DNA from: Haloferula luteola
GTDB taxonomy: Bacteria > Verrucomicrobiota > Verrucomicrobiia > Verrucomicrobiales > Akkermansiaceae
DNA length: 64,000 nucleotides
Assembly (NCBI RefSeq): GCF_014201715.1
Contig: NZ_JACHFD010000020.1
Coordinates: 1-64,000, forward strand
Reading direction: 5' to 3'
The translations under genes were made by a program, and so were the position numbers. Numbering within the stretch: position 1 is the first letter of the stretch; each line of letters opens with the position of its first letter. Shown one piece after another: positions 3,001 to 64,000 of this stretch. The notes under the pieces are model-generated. The model made no database searches. It saw only the letters and a program-made list of their open reading frames with translations, and was not told the DNA's origin.

Positions 3001-4964
3001 GAGCCAGCGAAGCTTCCGACCCACCGTCCGAAAGTCTTTACTCCCGCAGAAATGGAGCCATCGGTATCATTCGAAACGTAGCTGAAAGAAAGTCCGTTCG
3101 AGACCATCTCCGAGAGCTCATTGGAAGCATCTGCCGATTCGCTGGATCTCGTCCAAAAGATGCTTTTTGCTTTTGGGAGCCAAGCGGAATCCACACCCGC
3201 ATCCGCCAACCATCCCCGAAGATCGCTTTCGTTTCCGTCGACCGGCTCATTGTCGGAGGTAAAACTGACCTCTTCGACTTCGAAATTTTGAATATTCGAG
3301 AGGATCCCATTTTTGAAGGTCCTTTCCTGACTCTTCACGATGTTCATTCCCACGCGGCTGTATGCAACCTCCACTAGTTCGTATCCTGCCGTCGAAGTCG
3401 ACACCGTCCACGGTTCGGCCGGCGGGGTTGTCGGTCCGTCCAGCCATGGCCGCACGATGGTCTTCAGTCGATGCTTCCAAAGACGGTTTGAGTTCGTGAG
3501 ATCCGTGTAGTCATCGTAGTAGGAATATGCCTCCCAGCGCCCATCCGGGCGAACCACGGAAAGAACCCTTCCCAAAACATCCGGGTGGGGATTCCACTGC
3601 GTCGTCAGCCAGGTGGAATCGGAGTCGTACACCCACCGTTCGCGGCGAAACTTCGCTCGATCATAAACGACGTTCGAGGCATCTCTCTTGAGTTGGAAAG
3701 AGGTGGTTTCCTGCGTCTTCGAGATCAGCGCACCGTCTCGTCGAGTTTCGTCAACATCAGTGCGCTCCCATTCATGGAGATTCGAATTGTAGGTAAAAAC
3801 ACTCGCAAGCTCCCGAATCAAGGCCCCTCCTTCAGACACGATTTGGCATGAGCTTCCATCATTGGAGGTTCTCAAATAGGTCGTCACCTCCGTTTCACCG
3901 TTGGGGTGATGCCGTGTGATCTGAATCCCTCCATAGTGCACCGACGCTAAAATCGTGATCGGTAAGACCTCCAAAGTGAAATAGGGACTTCCCGTCAGCG
4001 TCGACGGCGACCCCAACGTATAATCCCCCTCCCCATAACACTCGACTTTGAAGCCACCAGTAGGAAATGAAGTAACCACCGCGAGTCGGCGGAAATTGGA
4101 AAGCTCCTTGATCACCGAGCCCACTTTGAAGACATGCAGAGTCCCGCCAATCTCGGAACGGTCCCCCACCGTCAGCTTGGAGACATCCGCTAAAGTCTGC
4201 GAGATTTCCCCATTGAGCTTCAGCCAACCCATATTCATCCCTCCTGAAGCCTCAGTTTCCCCCAATCGCAAAAGCAGGCTAAGCTGGGAAGGAGTGATCG
4301 AGGTCGGCATGCCATTGGCCATCGGGCCTGCATCCTGCGCCGAATTGGGCAGTGACGCGGGCGAAGCATCATCCGTGGTGGAAGAATCTTCGCCGTTCTC
4401 AGCCTCGGGGGAATCGCCAGAGCAGCTCTGACAGGTCGCGGAAGGGTCCTCCACCACCATCACCCTGACATTCATCTTCACATTCCCGGAACCCGAACCG
4501 ACTTCCAAGGTCCCATTCGAACTCGTCTGAAGATCGCTCCAGTCTCCCCACGAACTTCCATTCCACAATTGGTAGTTGGCTTGGATGAGATAGCCACATC
4601 CGACCTCAAATGTGACGGCAGCAAACGCCGAGCAACTCACTTCGCTCGCGGATGCCGTGGATGTCACTTCGGCAACCGCAAAAGTAGGCTTGTCGACCTC
4701 CACTTCAACTTCCCGGATCGGCGTCGAAATCTCGGCAGCCCCCAGGACTGGACCTCCCGCCGACGTCACCCCATTGAAGTTCACGGTAGCACTTGTGGAC
4801 TCGTTCGCGTCCGCCGCTCCCACACTTCCCGCCATCGAGAACCGGACATTTACGGTATTGGAGTCTTCAGCCGCACAGGTCCCACAAGCCGCCATGGCTC
4901 GATCGATCGAGATAGAAAACAAGGCGAGCGCCGAAAGGCCCAACCCGAATCGTTTGAATATCAT
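1..4964 (-). CDS. Secreted RHS/YD-repeat protein, 3' end outside window
   Basis: Reading the minus strand from the ATG at 4964 gives an uninterrupted frame to the window edge, at least 1654 residues. It opens with a signal peptide (MIFKRFGLGLSALALFSISI, cleavage near AMA-ACG), followed by a Ser/Glu/Asp-rich linker near residue 180. From about residue 800 there are many YD-type repeats such as TYGYDEFG, WEYDGLGRIV, YSYDANTG, YQYDAMNRRE, YAYDGIGNRL and YDADGNL, the last at the window edge. RHS proteins form a beta-cocoon that encapsulates a C-terminal effector or variable tip; that end is not in the window, so the cargo is unknown. The small Ca-repeat gene 61 bases upstream on the same strand is probably co-transcribed. 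I confirmed the frame by translating several stretches, including 4964-3900, about 3660-1000 and 50-1. Plus-strand frames here look like shadows. Confidence 0.93.
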   Translation of the reverse strand, partial: MIFKRFGLGLSALALFSISIDRAMAACGTCAAEDSNTVNVRFSMAGSVGAADANESTSATVNFNGVTSAGGPVLGAAEISTPIREVEVEVDKPTFAVAEVTSTASASEVSCSAFAAVTFEVGCGYLIQANYQLWNGSSWGDWSDLQTSSNGTLEVGSGSGNVKMNVRVMVVEDPSATCQSCSGDSPEAENGEDSSTTDDASPASLPNSAQDAGPMANGMPTSITPSQLSLLLRLGETEASGGMNMGWLKLNGEISQTLADVSKLTVGDRSEIGGTLHVFKVGSVIKELSNFRRLAVVTSFPTGGFKVECYGEGDYTLGSPSTLTGSPYFTLEVLPITILASVHYGGIQITRHHPNGETEVTTYLRTSNDGSSCQIVSEGGALIRELASVFTYNSNLHEWERTDVDETRRDGALISKTQETTSFQLKRDASNVVYDRAKFRRERWVYDSDSTWLTTQWNPHPDVLGRVLSVVRPDGRWEAYSYYDDYTDLTNSNRLWKHRLKTIVRPWLDGPTTPPAEPWTVSTSTAGYELVEVAYSRVGMNIVKSQERTFKNGILSNIQNFEVEEVSFTSDNEPVDGNESDLRGWLADAGVDSAWLPKAKSIFWTRSSESADASNELSEMVSNGLSFSYVSNDTDGSISAGVKTFGRWVGSFAGSVDEEGNGSVVGYERGNFSSGVFTPSSFSGTSPTMGAYLRQVRVKVLQGSVVRPHRGSREVRIIDAYGKLLREEFHVVDGSGDWKIATVRTYEYPVLWSNEHPREVIGKTWDFTEGSGGTVTLLASRILFKKEAISGYETAFWSENGEEQRVVVDQSGRLVSQTKVGVSGVQPDVVTSYDYQGLTTITTTTGGDQVARKQIVKDAAGREVASVNAAGAVIRTSYLNGGRDVLVTRPGGITELTSRNLSGDLVSRTGSGTVDEVYSYALLSNGHQVVTRRVGDDLSNSPRYVLTQTDGAGRVVEERTPSPTGTGEVTENFFYLPGTRRLERRVSPKGDFYQNVDLDLSGNGVEYSGEDFDGGGLAILSRDSLTARLSYYVKEGDDWWEVNAQRVYDGIDGSSGSFLETLSKRCLNEFADGWASWNVQVAPTGATTESTELVDWANKTVTVSTVGGGASNAVVTVNRNGLLLSRQTPEQSQPDTWEYDGLGRIVTEISARGAVKRRSYQADGSVAATTDDRGKVTRYETYGPSHTSSGLTSKIQYPDGTTRIYRYSPLGQLIEETGTAGYRVTYGYDEFGVKDRMWTWRSGSTSDQTTWVYQAGTGLLLQKKDAANQGVSYSYYPSGKVSVRTWARGVSATYTYSDGVNGSGHLIGVNYSDTTPDLTMFYGGSPTYDRMGRVYQVAQASRGTEHYRFVEGNTTVSSEQTMKGMLKEMYHSTSHQLFAERGLVFERDSYGRLNEVQETSNHWVSGFTVVRTVEYSYDANTGLLKQVDDGAQNHQYAYDANSPWVSQVQTRHTARLWFQEDRYRDAGGRILGVRSASVAGGTTATPVASHAYQYDAMNRREKETYLDGSYREIGYNDHSEVTSVSRYDSAGGAIPQLDSAYAYDGIGNRLLSSSEVIGDRSYTPNSLNQWAQVTHGSERLALGRAPTNWTVMVDGIESNRNGEIYYQGVSVDNATAPVWQTVKTKKMGATSVNTGYLWFDQAALVPSYDADGNL

Positions 4965-62216: not shown

Positions 62217-62981
62217 TTAGAAGCTCACGGCGAGGCTCACGCCACCGATGAGGTATTCTTGACCACCGTTGCCGAGCAGGTCGGTCACGAGATCGCTGTC
62301 ACCGTTGGTGTACTTCACGTAAGGCTTGAGGGTCACGCCGTCGCGGAATTCCCACGGCAGAGCGGCACCCACGTAGTAACCTTGGAAACCATCAGCGGTA
62401 CCCACGGAACCCGGACGAGCCGAAGCTTGGAGGCCTTGGCCATCAGCGAAGGCAACACCAGCGGTCAGCTCAAGCGAAAGGCAATCGTTGAACTCAACGG
62501 TGTAACCAACGTTGTTGTCCCAGTACCAACCGGAAGCGGCGTCGAAGTCATAGTAGAAGGTCGAACCGAAGGTCAGACCGAACGGCAGCTCATAGGAAGC
62601 ACCGAGGTAAACTTCCTGAGTGTCAGCGGAAGCGTCCGGGAAGTAGTAGTAAATGTAACCCAGTTCGAAGGTCACATCACCCACTGCGTAGCTGGCGCTG
62701 GTGTAGAGGTCGAGCTCGTCGTTGTTGAATCCGGCGGCGCCGAAAACAGTCGGGGAATCGAACGAGGCGTACCAGGCACCTGCGCTGAAGCCCAGATCAC
62801 CCATGGACCAGGCCACATCGGCACCGGCTTCCACGAGGTCGTTGCCCAGATCGACGAATCGGAATTCGTACATGTTGGCGTAGCCAACGTGCACTTCACC
62901 TTCAAGTTCCGCCGAAGCGTAGCCAGCCACGAGGGTGGAGGCAGCGGCCAGGGCGCCAACGGTTTTGCTGTAGTTGCGCAT
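62217..62981 (-). CDS. Outer-membrane beta-barrel protein
   Basis: The ATG at 62981 (MRNYSKTVGALAAASTLVAG) gives 254 residues with a signal peptide cleaved near ASA-ELE. The mature protein is a run of amphipathic strands rich in Tyr, Gly, Phe and Asp (FELGYIYYYFPDA, VYLGASYELPFGLTFGSTFY) and ends with GGVSLAVSF, a C-terminal Phe typical of barrel insertion. A longer frame adds 42 basic residues and is rejected. The gene is divergent from amtB and has its own sigma-54 promoter, suggesting that it moves a nitrogen compound through the outer membrane; this is inference. Confidence 0.85.
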   Translation of the reverse strand: MRNYSKTVGALAAASTLVAGYASAELEGEVHVGYANMYEFRFVDLGNDLVEAGADVAWSMGDLGFSAGAWYASFDSPTVFGAAGFNNDELDLYTSASYAVGDVTFELGYIYYYFPDASADTQEVYLGASYELPFGLTFGSTFYYDFDAASGWYWDNNVGYTVEFNDCLSLELTAGVAFADGQGLQASARPGSVGTADGFQGYYVGAALPWEFRDGVTLKPYVKYTNGDSDLVTDLLGNGGQEYLIGGVSLAVSF

Positions 62982-63054
62982 CGTTTTTCGTTTTTCGGTT
63001 GCTGCTAGAACCCCCCGAGCCGGTAAACCCGACGTCGGGAGAATTTGAGCGTTT

Positions 63055-63070
63055 AGCATCCGACGTGCCA
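63055..63070 (-). promoter_or_regulatory. Sigma-54 promoter of the outer-membrane protein gene
   Basis: On the minus strand TGGCACG (63070-63064), four bases, then ATGCT (63059-63055) match the sigma-54 consensus TGGCACG-N4-TTGCW except one base in the -12 box, with the required 12-base step from GG to GC. Transcription would begin near 63046, about 65 bases before the ATG at 62981. Confidence 0.72.
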
Positions 63071-63343
63071 CGAAGGTCCGCCGGACACTGTTTCTCAGCC
63101 GTTTCATTAGGAAAGCTAAAGGATTGTGTCCAGCGAAAAGCGGGGGATCGGATGCGTCTCGCTTGACCGCTAGTTAGTCGCCCGCCTGCGGGCTGGCAAG
63201 GGCATTTCCCCGACTTCTTTCGCGCTTCGTTTCGGCGTTCCCCGCCGCTCCTCGAGCGACCCCGCCGCTGGTGGGAATTTCATGAACCTCAGCCGTTCAC
63301 CCCACCTCGCGCCCACCCCTCAGCAGAGCCCCCTCTATCAATT

Positions 63344-63359
63344 TGGCACGGCAGGTGCT
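63344..63359 (+). promoter_or_regulatory. Sigma-54 promoter of amtB
   Basis: TGGCACG (63344-63350), four bases, then GTGCT (63355-63359) match the sigma-54 consensus with one mismatch in the -12 box and correct spacing. Transcription would start near 63371, about 30 bases before the amtB ATG at 63400. NtrC-type activation of amtB is established in other bacteria. Confidence 0.78.
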
Positions 63360-63399
63360 CTCCCCCCCTGCGTTCATCAAACCAACCACGCCAACCAAC

Positions 63400-64000
63400 A
63401 TGCGAATGCTGACAAAACTGACTTACCTCATCCCCCTACTGCTGACGGCTTCGGCCTTCGGACAGGATGAGCCGCCTGCCGAAGGAACCTACGAAGCCTT
63501 CATGGCGGGTAGCGACGCGGCAATGTTCACCGTCAATAACCTTTGGATTCTCCTGTCGGCGGCCCTGGTGTTCATCATGCACCTCGGATTCTGCTCGGTG
63601 GAATCCGGCCTCTGCCAAAAGAAAAACACGGTCAACATCCTCTTCAAAAACGTGTTCATCGTCTGCATCGGCGCCCTGACCTACATGGCCTGGGGTTTCA
63701 ATGCGATGTATCCCGGCACGATGGGTGAGGACTGGAACGGTTTCTTCGCCATGGGCTCCCCTCTGATGAACGGGTTTGCCGATGAAGCGACCCGCACCGC
63801 CAGCGTCACTGCGGACTACGCCAGCTACACGATTTGGACCGACTTCATTTTCCAAGCCATGTTTGCCGCGACCGCTGCCACCATCGTTTCCGGTGCTGTG
63901 GCCGAGCGCGTGAAACTCGTGAGCTTCATGATCTACGCCACCATCCTGGTGGGCTTCTTCTACCCGATCACGGGTTCCTGGAAGTGGGGCACCGGCTGGC
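63400..64000 (+). CDS. amtB: Ammonium transporter AmtB, 3' end outside window
   Basis: The ATG at 63400 opens a frame that reaches the right edge (200 codons). A signal peptide (MRMLTKLTYLIPLLLTASAF, cleavage near GQD) precedes the Amt core: NNLWILLSAALVFIMHLGF, CSVESGLCQKKNTVNILFKN, the helix VCIGALTYMAWGF, and FIFQAMFAATAATIVSGAVA with ERVKL. The signal peptide and ammonium channel helices are as in other AmtB trimers. A sigma-54 promoter lies just upstream. Whether a glnK gene is linked cannot be seen. Confidence 0.95.
   Translation, partial: MRMLTKLTYLIPLLLTASAFGQDEPPAEGTYEAFMAGSDAAMFTVNNLWILLSAALVFIMHLGFCSVESGLCQKKNTVNILFKNVFIVCIGALTYMAWGFNAMYPGTMGEDWNGFFAMGSPLMNGFADEATRTASVTADYASYTIWTDFIFQAMFAATAATIVSGAVAERVKLVSFMIYATILVGFFYPITGSWKWGTGW

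Follow-up and report, generated by a model that had tools for sequence, protein, structure and literature searches.

The glnK-amtB nitrogen operon stands under sigma-54/NtrC control, and the sigma-54 consensus sets GG and GC 10 bp apart in TGGCACG-N4-TTGCW. Ammonium is usually taken to cross the outer membrane (OM) freely via general porins; TorF, a putative porin, may lie near glnK-amtB in some proteobacteria. PMC5955497 lists the Shewanella torF gene, from which the TorF family probably takes its name, under the label 'TMAO reductase system outer membrane porin', and PMC2621215 describes FeoP of Acidithiobacillus ferrooxidans, a putative porin that shares the feo iron-uptake operon with FeoABC and through which Fe(II) might reach the periplasm. 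With these systems we compare a locus of Haloferula luteola, in which a gene for an OM β-barrel and an amtB gene diverge from a single intergenic region.

The window analysed is the first 64,000 nucleotides of contig 20, in a genome of 4.9 Mb and 84 contigs; Haloferula is placed in the Verrucomicrobiales by NCBI. At its right-hand end lies an amtB-type ammonium transporter gene (63400..64000, + strand) whose 446-aa reading frame runs past the window to contig base 64740, and whose product matches PF00909 at 389.5 bits (cut-off 23.2) and TIGR00836 at 395.7 bits (cut-off 343.3), and the marine subtype TIGR03644 at 430.5 bits, below its cut-off of 514. Divergent from it is the barrel gene (62217..62981, - strand), an ORF of 254 aa with a signal peptide recognisable by eye and a C-terminal Phe. 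The earlier note had pointed to two opposing sigma-54 sites with exact spacing at 62982-63399, which is precisely the interval that separates one start codon from the other; both sequences and both positions are confirmed in the window, and the observation of two divergent sigma-54 promoter sequences is correct. The -24/-12 promoter of amtB (TGGCACGGCAGGTGCT; TGGCACG-GCAG-GTGCT; 63344..63359, + strand) has its last base 41 bp upstream of the amtB ATG (63400), and that of the barrel gene (TGGCACGTCGGATGCT; TGGCACG-TCGG-ATGCT; 63055..63070, - strand) has its last base 74 bp upstream of the barrel ATG (62981). The GG-to-GC distance is 10 bp in both, and each matches 11 of the 12 consensus positions. 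They are the only exact occurrences of TGGCACG-N5-TGCW in the window; with up to two mismatches, the 29 matches stand at chance level (29.6 expected).

Indeed, counts of mismatch-tolerant matches equal chance across the genome as well (143 with up to one mismatch, against 162 for a control pattern), and we rejected them as evidence: weight lies only in position, exactness and conservation. Exact TGGCACG-N5-TGCW occurs seven times genome-wide, the amtB and barrel sites included; two of the seven are inside coding sequence, and five end 27-74 bp before a start codon in the correct orientation. Besides the two described above, these sites precede rpoN (L076:3565-3580, contig 3; last base 61 bp before the ATG), a P-II gene (L079:4675-4690, contig 17; 27 bp before the start) and a CP-ATP-grasp/alpha-E gene (L080:3877-3892, contig 18; 31 bp before a GTG), which diverges from a transglutaminase/DUF2126 amidoligase gene. 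That five of seven exact sites sit at gene starts, amtB, P-II and rpoN amongst them, is the strongest within-genome argument, and the link to nitrogen is strengthened because rpoN and the sole P-II gene found in the genome, which is unlinked to either amt and on a different contig from the window, carry the same exact site. The site upstream of rpoN also raises the possibility of rpoN self-regulation. The looser pattern TGGCAYR-N5-TGCW has 14 genomic matches against six for its control; two of the seven that it adds (L214 and L216) end 34-38 bp before a correctly oriented ORF start, and the other five do not. As further sigma-54 targets, the main glnA and the second amt were rejected, no word of 10 or more being found directly upstream of either: the main glnA has no word of at least 9/12 there, and the second amt has a 9/12 word (TGGCATTCATGCTGCT; L085:5041-5026, - strand, contig 19) just before a likely internal ATG, which is weak because that 9-kb contig stretch holds seven such words on the same strand. 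What emerges is a small candidate sigma-54 nitrogen set in a Verrucomicrobial genome: amtB, the barrel gene, P-II and rpoN.

Which activator could serve these promoters? The earlier note had asked after rpoN in the genome, and it is present (TIGR02395, 391.4 bits, cut-off 277.35). PF00158, which also matches all 14 control genomes, has ten matches here, of which five at 20-34 bits mean little and four are strong (172-250 bits). One of the strong four is RtcR (769.4 bits, cut-off 650), and the other three are response regulators (L081, L082 and L083); a kinase gene adjoins L082, and the gene next to L083 is read as a kinase. L007 is a further response-regulator-like protein with a weak PF00158 domain (61.9 bits). 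The NtrC family TIGR01818 was scanned against L081, L082 and L084, with L083 scanned against Pfam only and L007 outside the set; amongst NCBIfam families it ranks first for L081 alone, and none of the three reaches the equivalog cut-off of 558.6 (L081, 431.8; L082, 403.0; L084, 165.6). The canonical NtrC dyad is GCAC-N8/9-GTGC, and an exact-word search, which weaker sites would escape, found no match to an NtrC-type dyad in the intergenic regions of six genomes. The expectation of an NtrC-type activator is thus borne out as far as response-regulator-type activators go, but not for NtrC itself, given the score of the best candidate and the dyad not found; judged from these sequences, an NtrC-like activator for the amtB and barrel promoters is plausible.

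The barrel itself belongs to a poorly described family. PF09694 (Gcw_chp) matches it at 33.3 bits in the whole-genome profile scan (cut-off 24) and was not reported when the protein was run through hmmscan with filters; TIGR02001 (TorF family putative porin) gave no match to it, and its closest relative reaches 40.4 bits, with a cut-off of 47.15. Amongst 27 barrel relatives, PF09694 is found in nine and TIGR02001 in 13, at E-values up to 1. Homology to TorF is supported despite the sub-cut-off TIGR02001 score, because hhalign of the window barrel family against nine TorF/Gcw_chp proteins returns a probability of 98.6% over residues 27-175. By profile comparison, then, the barrel is related to the Gcw_chp/TorF putative porins, which are uncharacterised, and stands apart from them as a divergent branch; a search of open-licence PMC text found no papers under the names TIGR02001 and Gcw_chp, and no activity study of TorF/Gcw_chp porins was found in the literature search. 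AlphaFold2, run with 12 sequences, predicts 13 strand segments that we read as 12 strands, at a modest pLDDT of 63 and pTM of 0.63. The best solved neighbour of this model is KdgM (Z 19.8, rmsd 1.4 over 160 residues), and NanC scores Z 18.4; since an autotransporter barrel (Z 19.6) scores as high as KdgM, the match is generic, and the model is one of a 12-stranded barrel fold from which a porin function does not follow. The mature protein (first 24 residues removed) carries 33 D+E against 5 K+R, and mature barrels are very acidic across the window's clade.

Barrel relatives are present in 47 of the 57 genomes searched, our own genome counted, with Haloferula rosea and Luteolibacter marinus amongst the relatives compared. 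We scored pairs in the roughly 5 kb that flank each listed match to left and right, contig permitting, and took the best match per genome. Within the genus (18 genomes), barrel and amt are divergent neighbours in 14 of the 16 testable genomes (absent in G003 and G016; G004 and G005, at a contig edge, left out); amongst the 12 genomes with a match from the family's other genera, six of 11 testable carry the pair (G025, G026 and G028-G031; none in G018, G021, G022, G027 and G034; G023 at a contig edge). Other families of the order yield amt-linked barrels, which is what this last count refers to, in 0 of 17 barrel-bearing genomes, and the divergent sigma-54 barrel-amt pairing is seen only in this family of the Verrucomicrobiales. 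The earlier note knew of no description of the pairing. No paper on a porin-amtB link, judged by title or opening abstract in open-licence PMC text, was found, and the main text of PMC3162934 has no occurrence of 'porin', 'ammonium transport', 'amtB' or 'Verrucomicrob'; the novelty is nevertheless qualified, as relatives have the pair too, linkage to amt turns up repeatedly in the phylum, and the family already bears the names TorF and Gcw_chp.

How well are the two promoters kept? Across the 20 pairs, an amt-ward word of at least 10/12 (range 10-12) is found in all 20, against a mean of 0.56 and a maximum of four in 200 shuffles. A barrel-ward word of at least 10/12 occurs in eight pairs (shuffles: mean 0.64, maximum four), and L147 would join them should its translation start downstream of the point where the tblastn match has its 5' end; good words in both directions are present in eight pairs, where shuffles reach at most one. 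In this genome and the five nearest to it, the barrel-side site scores 10-11/12 and lies 74-82 bp from the ATG; in the remaining same-genus genomes it is degraded. The conservation of both sites that had been looked for holds in general on the amt side only; the barrel-side site falls below 10/12 in 12 of 20 pairs, and for this reason co-induction is not general. Sigma-54-like words also precede other barrel relatives: of 37 further upstream regions, 36 from outside the genus and one belonging to a second copy within it, 13 score at least 10 (shuffled mean 0.59, maximum three) and nine at least 11 (shuffled mean 0.09, maximum two). Since ten of these 13 have no amt nearby, sigma-54 control seems, from these upstream sequences, to be a property of the barrel lineage itself.

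The transporter beside the barrel has changed more than the arrangement. The genome's two Amts are only about 30% identical, for which reason we regard Amt1-like and Amt2-like as old types. We traced the Amt type next to the 20 paired barrels (12 Amt1-like, eight Amt2-like) on a tree of 68 barrels, whose deep part is limited because branches are long and the alignment is poor. At least four changes are required when only Amt type is counted within these pairs, or five to six if changes between pair and no pair are counted too. The sister barrels L141 and L142 (support 100/100) adjoin different Amt types, and all eight pairs with a good barrel-ward site carry the Amt1-like type. Pairing and amt-side promoter persist through these changes, which could also have arisen from a tandem amt pair with differential loss; one cluster, in L188, does hold two amt genes.

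Between the two promoters lies a stretch of conserved blocks (63082..63227, no strand assigned) comprising TGTCCAG, AAAA, GCAAG and an anchor, TTARGAAA, in 16 same-genus genomes. These genomes were picked by the anchor TTRRGAAA, so that its invariance is by construction, and the other blocks represent independent conservation; a 17th genome (L138) has a one-base anchor variant and GCAAG, without an exact TGTCCAG. The blocks are also present in L132 and L136, two genomes without an amt at this place. We read them as a candidate enhancer, whose activator sites would serve the barrel and possibly both promoters. An RNA element was considered and set aside in favour of such a DNA element, with little covariation and no Rfam match: consensus folding of the aligned blocks gives -4.0 kcal/mol on one strand (eight pairs, of which three vary at both partners in at least one sequence) and, on the other, -1.4 kcal/mol (four pairs, none varying in this way), and Rfam has no match in the block stretch of the window or of six relatives. 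Elsewhere, in a relative, an Acido-Lenti-1 RNA (RF01687) exceeds its gathering score at L023:27-71. Genome-wide, TTAGGAAA-N10/26-GTGTCCAG has a single exact match, the one at this locus, and therefore defines no regulon; we discarded it as a regulon marker. Directly before the barrel ATG there is, in addition, a conserved 5' leader, GCAGCAACCGAAAAACGAAAAAC (62982..63005, - strand; in this genome GCAGCAACCGAAAAACGAAAAACG), aligned over 17 same-genus upstream regions, where post-transcriptional control is possible.

Beyond the family, Gcw_chp genes keep similar company. In a phylum sample of 194 genomes, 44 have PF09694, with 49 matches listed and 30 loci examined; an amt lies within 1.5 kb of Gcw_chp in eight of the 30, all eight outside the class. 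The order is co-directional amt-glnK-Gcw_chp in seven genomes and amt-glnK-amt-Gcw_chp in L188, with nine Gcw_chp copies over the eight genomes, and the nine form one clade (99/96) on the barrel tree. A locus in another class of the phylum (L193:287-5692) holds two tandem amt-glnK-Gcw_chp sets. A sigma-54-like word of at least 10 precedes the first amt in six of the eight amt-glnK clusters (in L195 it touches the edge of the tblastn match) and two such words lie elsewhere in the stretches compared, these counts being without shuffle control. Amongst proteobacteria we considered plasmids only (28 records with TorF, 24 viewed, several of them close kin; neighbours within 4 kb), and no match was found in plasmid searches with either the window barrel or the amt-linked Gcw_chp L121. 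Kdp, choline/betaine or Amt genes adjoin TorF in 11 of the 24 records. Kdp genes are near it in six (L199, L202 with TorF at 3935-4594, L207, L209, L211 and L212, the last by tblastn to KdpD only), and in one of the six the TorF gene lies inside kdpB-kdpC; in four, all from Pseudoalteromonas (L185, L203, L205 and L208), TorF directly follows a BCCT transporter and choline dehydrogenase; and in one, from Aquabacterium, it precedes an amt and is itself close to the gene of a sigma-54-dependent regulator. The other 13 have none of Kdp, BCCT with choline dehydrogenase, or Amt, although choline dehydrogenase occurs by itself in one of them (L184).

The promoter sequences and the barrel-amt pairing are real and kept in relatives, and a nitrogen role for the module is likely. 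The explanation that we favour, as somewhat probable, is that of a nitrogen-limitation uptake module, in which an OM channel is induced together with Amt; the computed support for it consists of the promoter sequences, their genomic company (P-II and rpoN), the conservation of the pairing and the family of the barrel. Nitrogen would be the signal and ammonium the substrate: under nitrogen limitation, an NtrC-like enhancer-binding protein would activate RNA polymerase-sigma-54 at both divergent promoters, and two proteins would be made simultaneously, the ammonium transporter of the inner membrane and an acidic OM channel of 12 strands. The channel would raise the permeability of the OM to ammonium, perhaps also to other small cations or amines, and the high-affinity Amt would thereby not be limited by the entry of ammonium into the periplasm. 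The earlier proposal of a nitrogen-starvation porin that works with AmtB finds backing in the link to an ammonium transporter kept in relatives, but the two-sided promoter is general on the amt side only.

Could the two genes depend on sigma-54 and yet answer to a signal other than nitrogen, with an AtoC-like or other response regulator acting for envelope or carbon, and the barrel importing another solute? The genome has three strong response-regulator activators, and the two that were compared with NCBIfam fall below the NtrC cut-off; the kinase next to one of them is closer to AtoS than to NtrB (240.8 against 102.8 bits), and in other genomes Kdp or choline/betaine genes are the neighbours of TorF relatives. 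However, the nitrogen genes P-II and amtB share the same exact site and the amt association recurs in the phylum, and we consider a non-nitrogen signal rather unlikely. We also consider it unlikely that the barrel serves general diffusion or structure, like any ordinary OM protein, and that the intergenic region is an inherited neighbourhood without functional coupling. Its generic fold match would fit such a protein, as would the many barrels of the order that stand unlinked to amt, including those of the other families, yet the pair persists through at least four Amt-type changes (a point that a tandem amt with differential loss would weaken) and a second, co-directional amt arrangement exists in other classes.

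More doubtful still is the notion that the amtB promoter alone is used, the barrel-side site being a relic and the barrel driven from another promoter in the conserved blocks. The GG is degraded in several same-genus genomes whose upstream blocks and leader are still conserved, as one would expect of a relic; against this, six genomes, this one and the five most closely related to it, retain a site of 10-11/12 that lies 74-82 bp before the ATG.

Returning to the nitrogen-uptake module, a barrel that keeps its place next to amt while the Amt type changes, and that in several genomes has a sigma-54 promoter to itself, suggests that in these bacteria the OM is part of nitrogen scavenging, and that the barrel may be an outer door for scarce ammonium. 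The pairing also hints at a substrate for a group of porins whose annotation stops at 'putative'. The amt neighbours in the Verrucomicrobiota, the Kdp, BCCT and Amt neighbours on plasmids and the very acidic mature barrels lead us to a broader and quite tentative idea, which we would not yet back: perhaps Gcw_chp/TorF proteins are OM channels selective for small monovalent cations and amines, such as ammonium, potassium or choline-type molecules, each co-controlled with the matching high-affinity importer of the inner membrane. Were this true, ammonium starvation would be met at both membranes, within this clade via two divergent sigma-54 promoters.

Set against the systems with which we began, the barrel is homologous to TorF/Gcw_chp (PF09694, TIGR02001) yet forms a divergent branch below the TIGR02001 cut-off. 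With the 12-stranded monomeric porins KdgM and NanC it shares 12 predicted strands and the Z scores given above; however, identity to the window barrel is 7-9%, an autotransporter barrel ties in Z, and the KdgM/NanC family is absent among the 17 Pfam families matched by the 27 barrel relatives. The glnK-amtB operon finds its counterpart in the sigma-54 sites before amtB and P-II, but here P-II is on another contig, and an OM barrel takes the neighbouring place. FeoP differs in substrate and in its iron regulation, and is likened to the barrel by gene arrangement; by analogy, an outer door beside an inner pump would follow the same logic as barrel and Amt.
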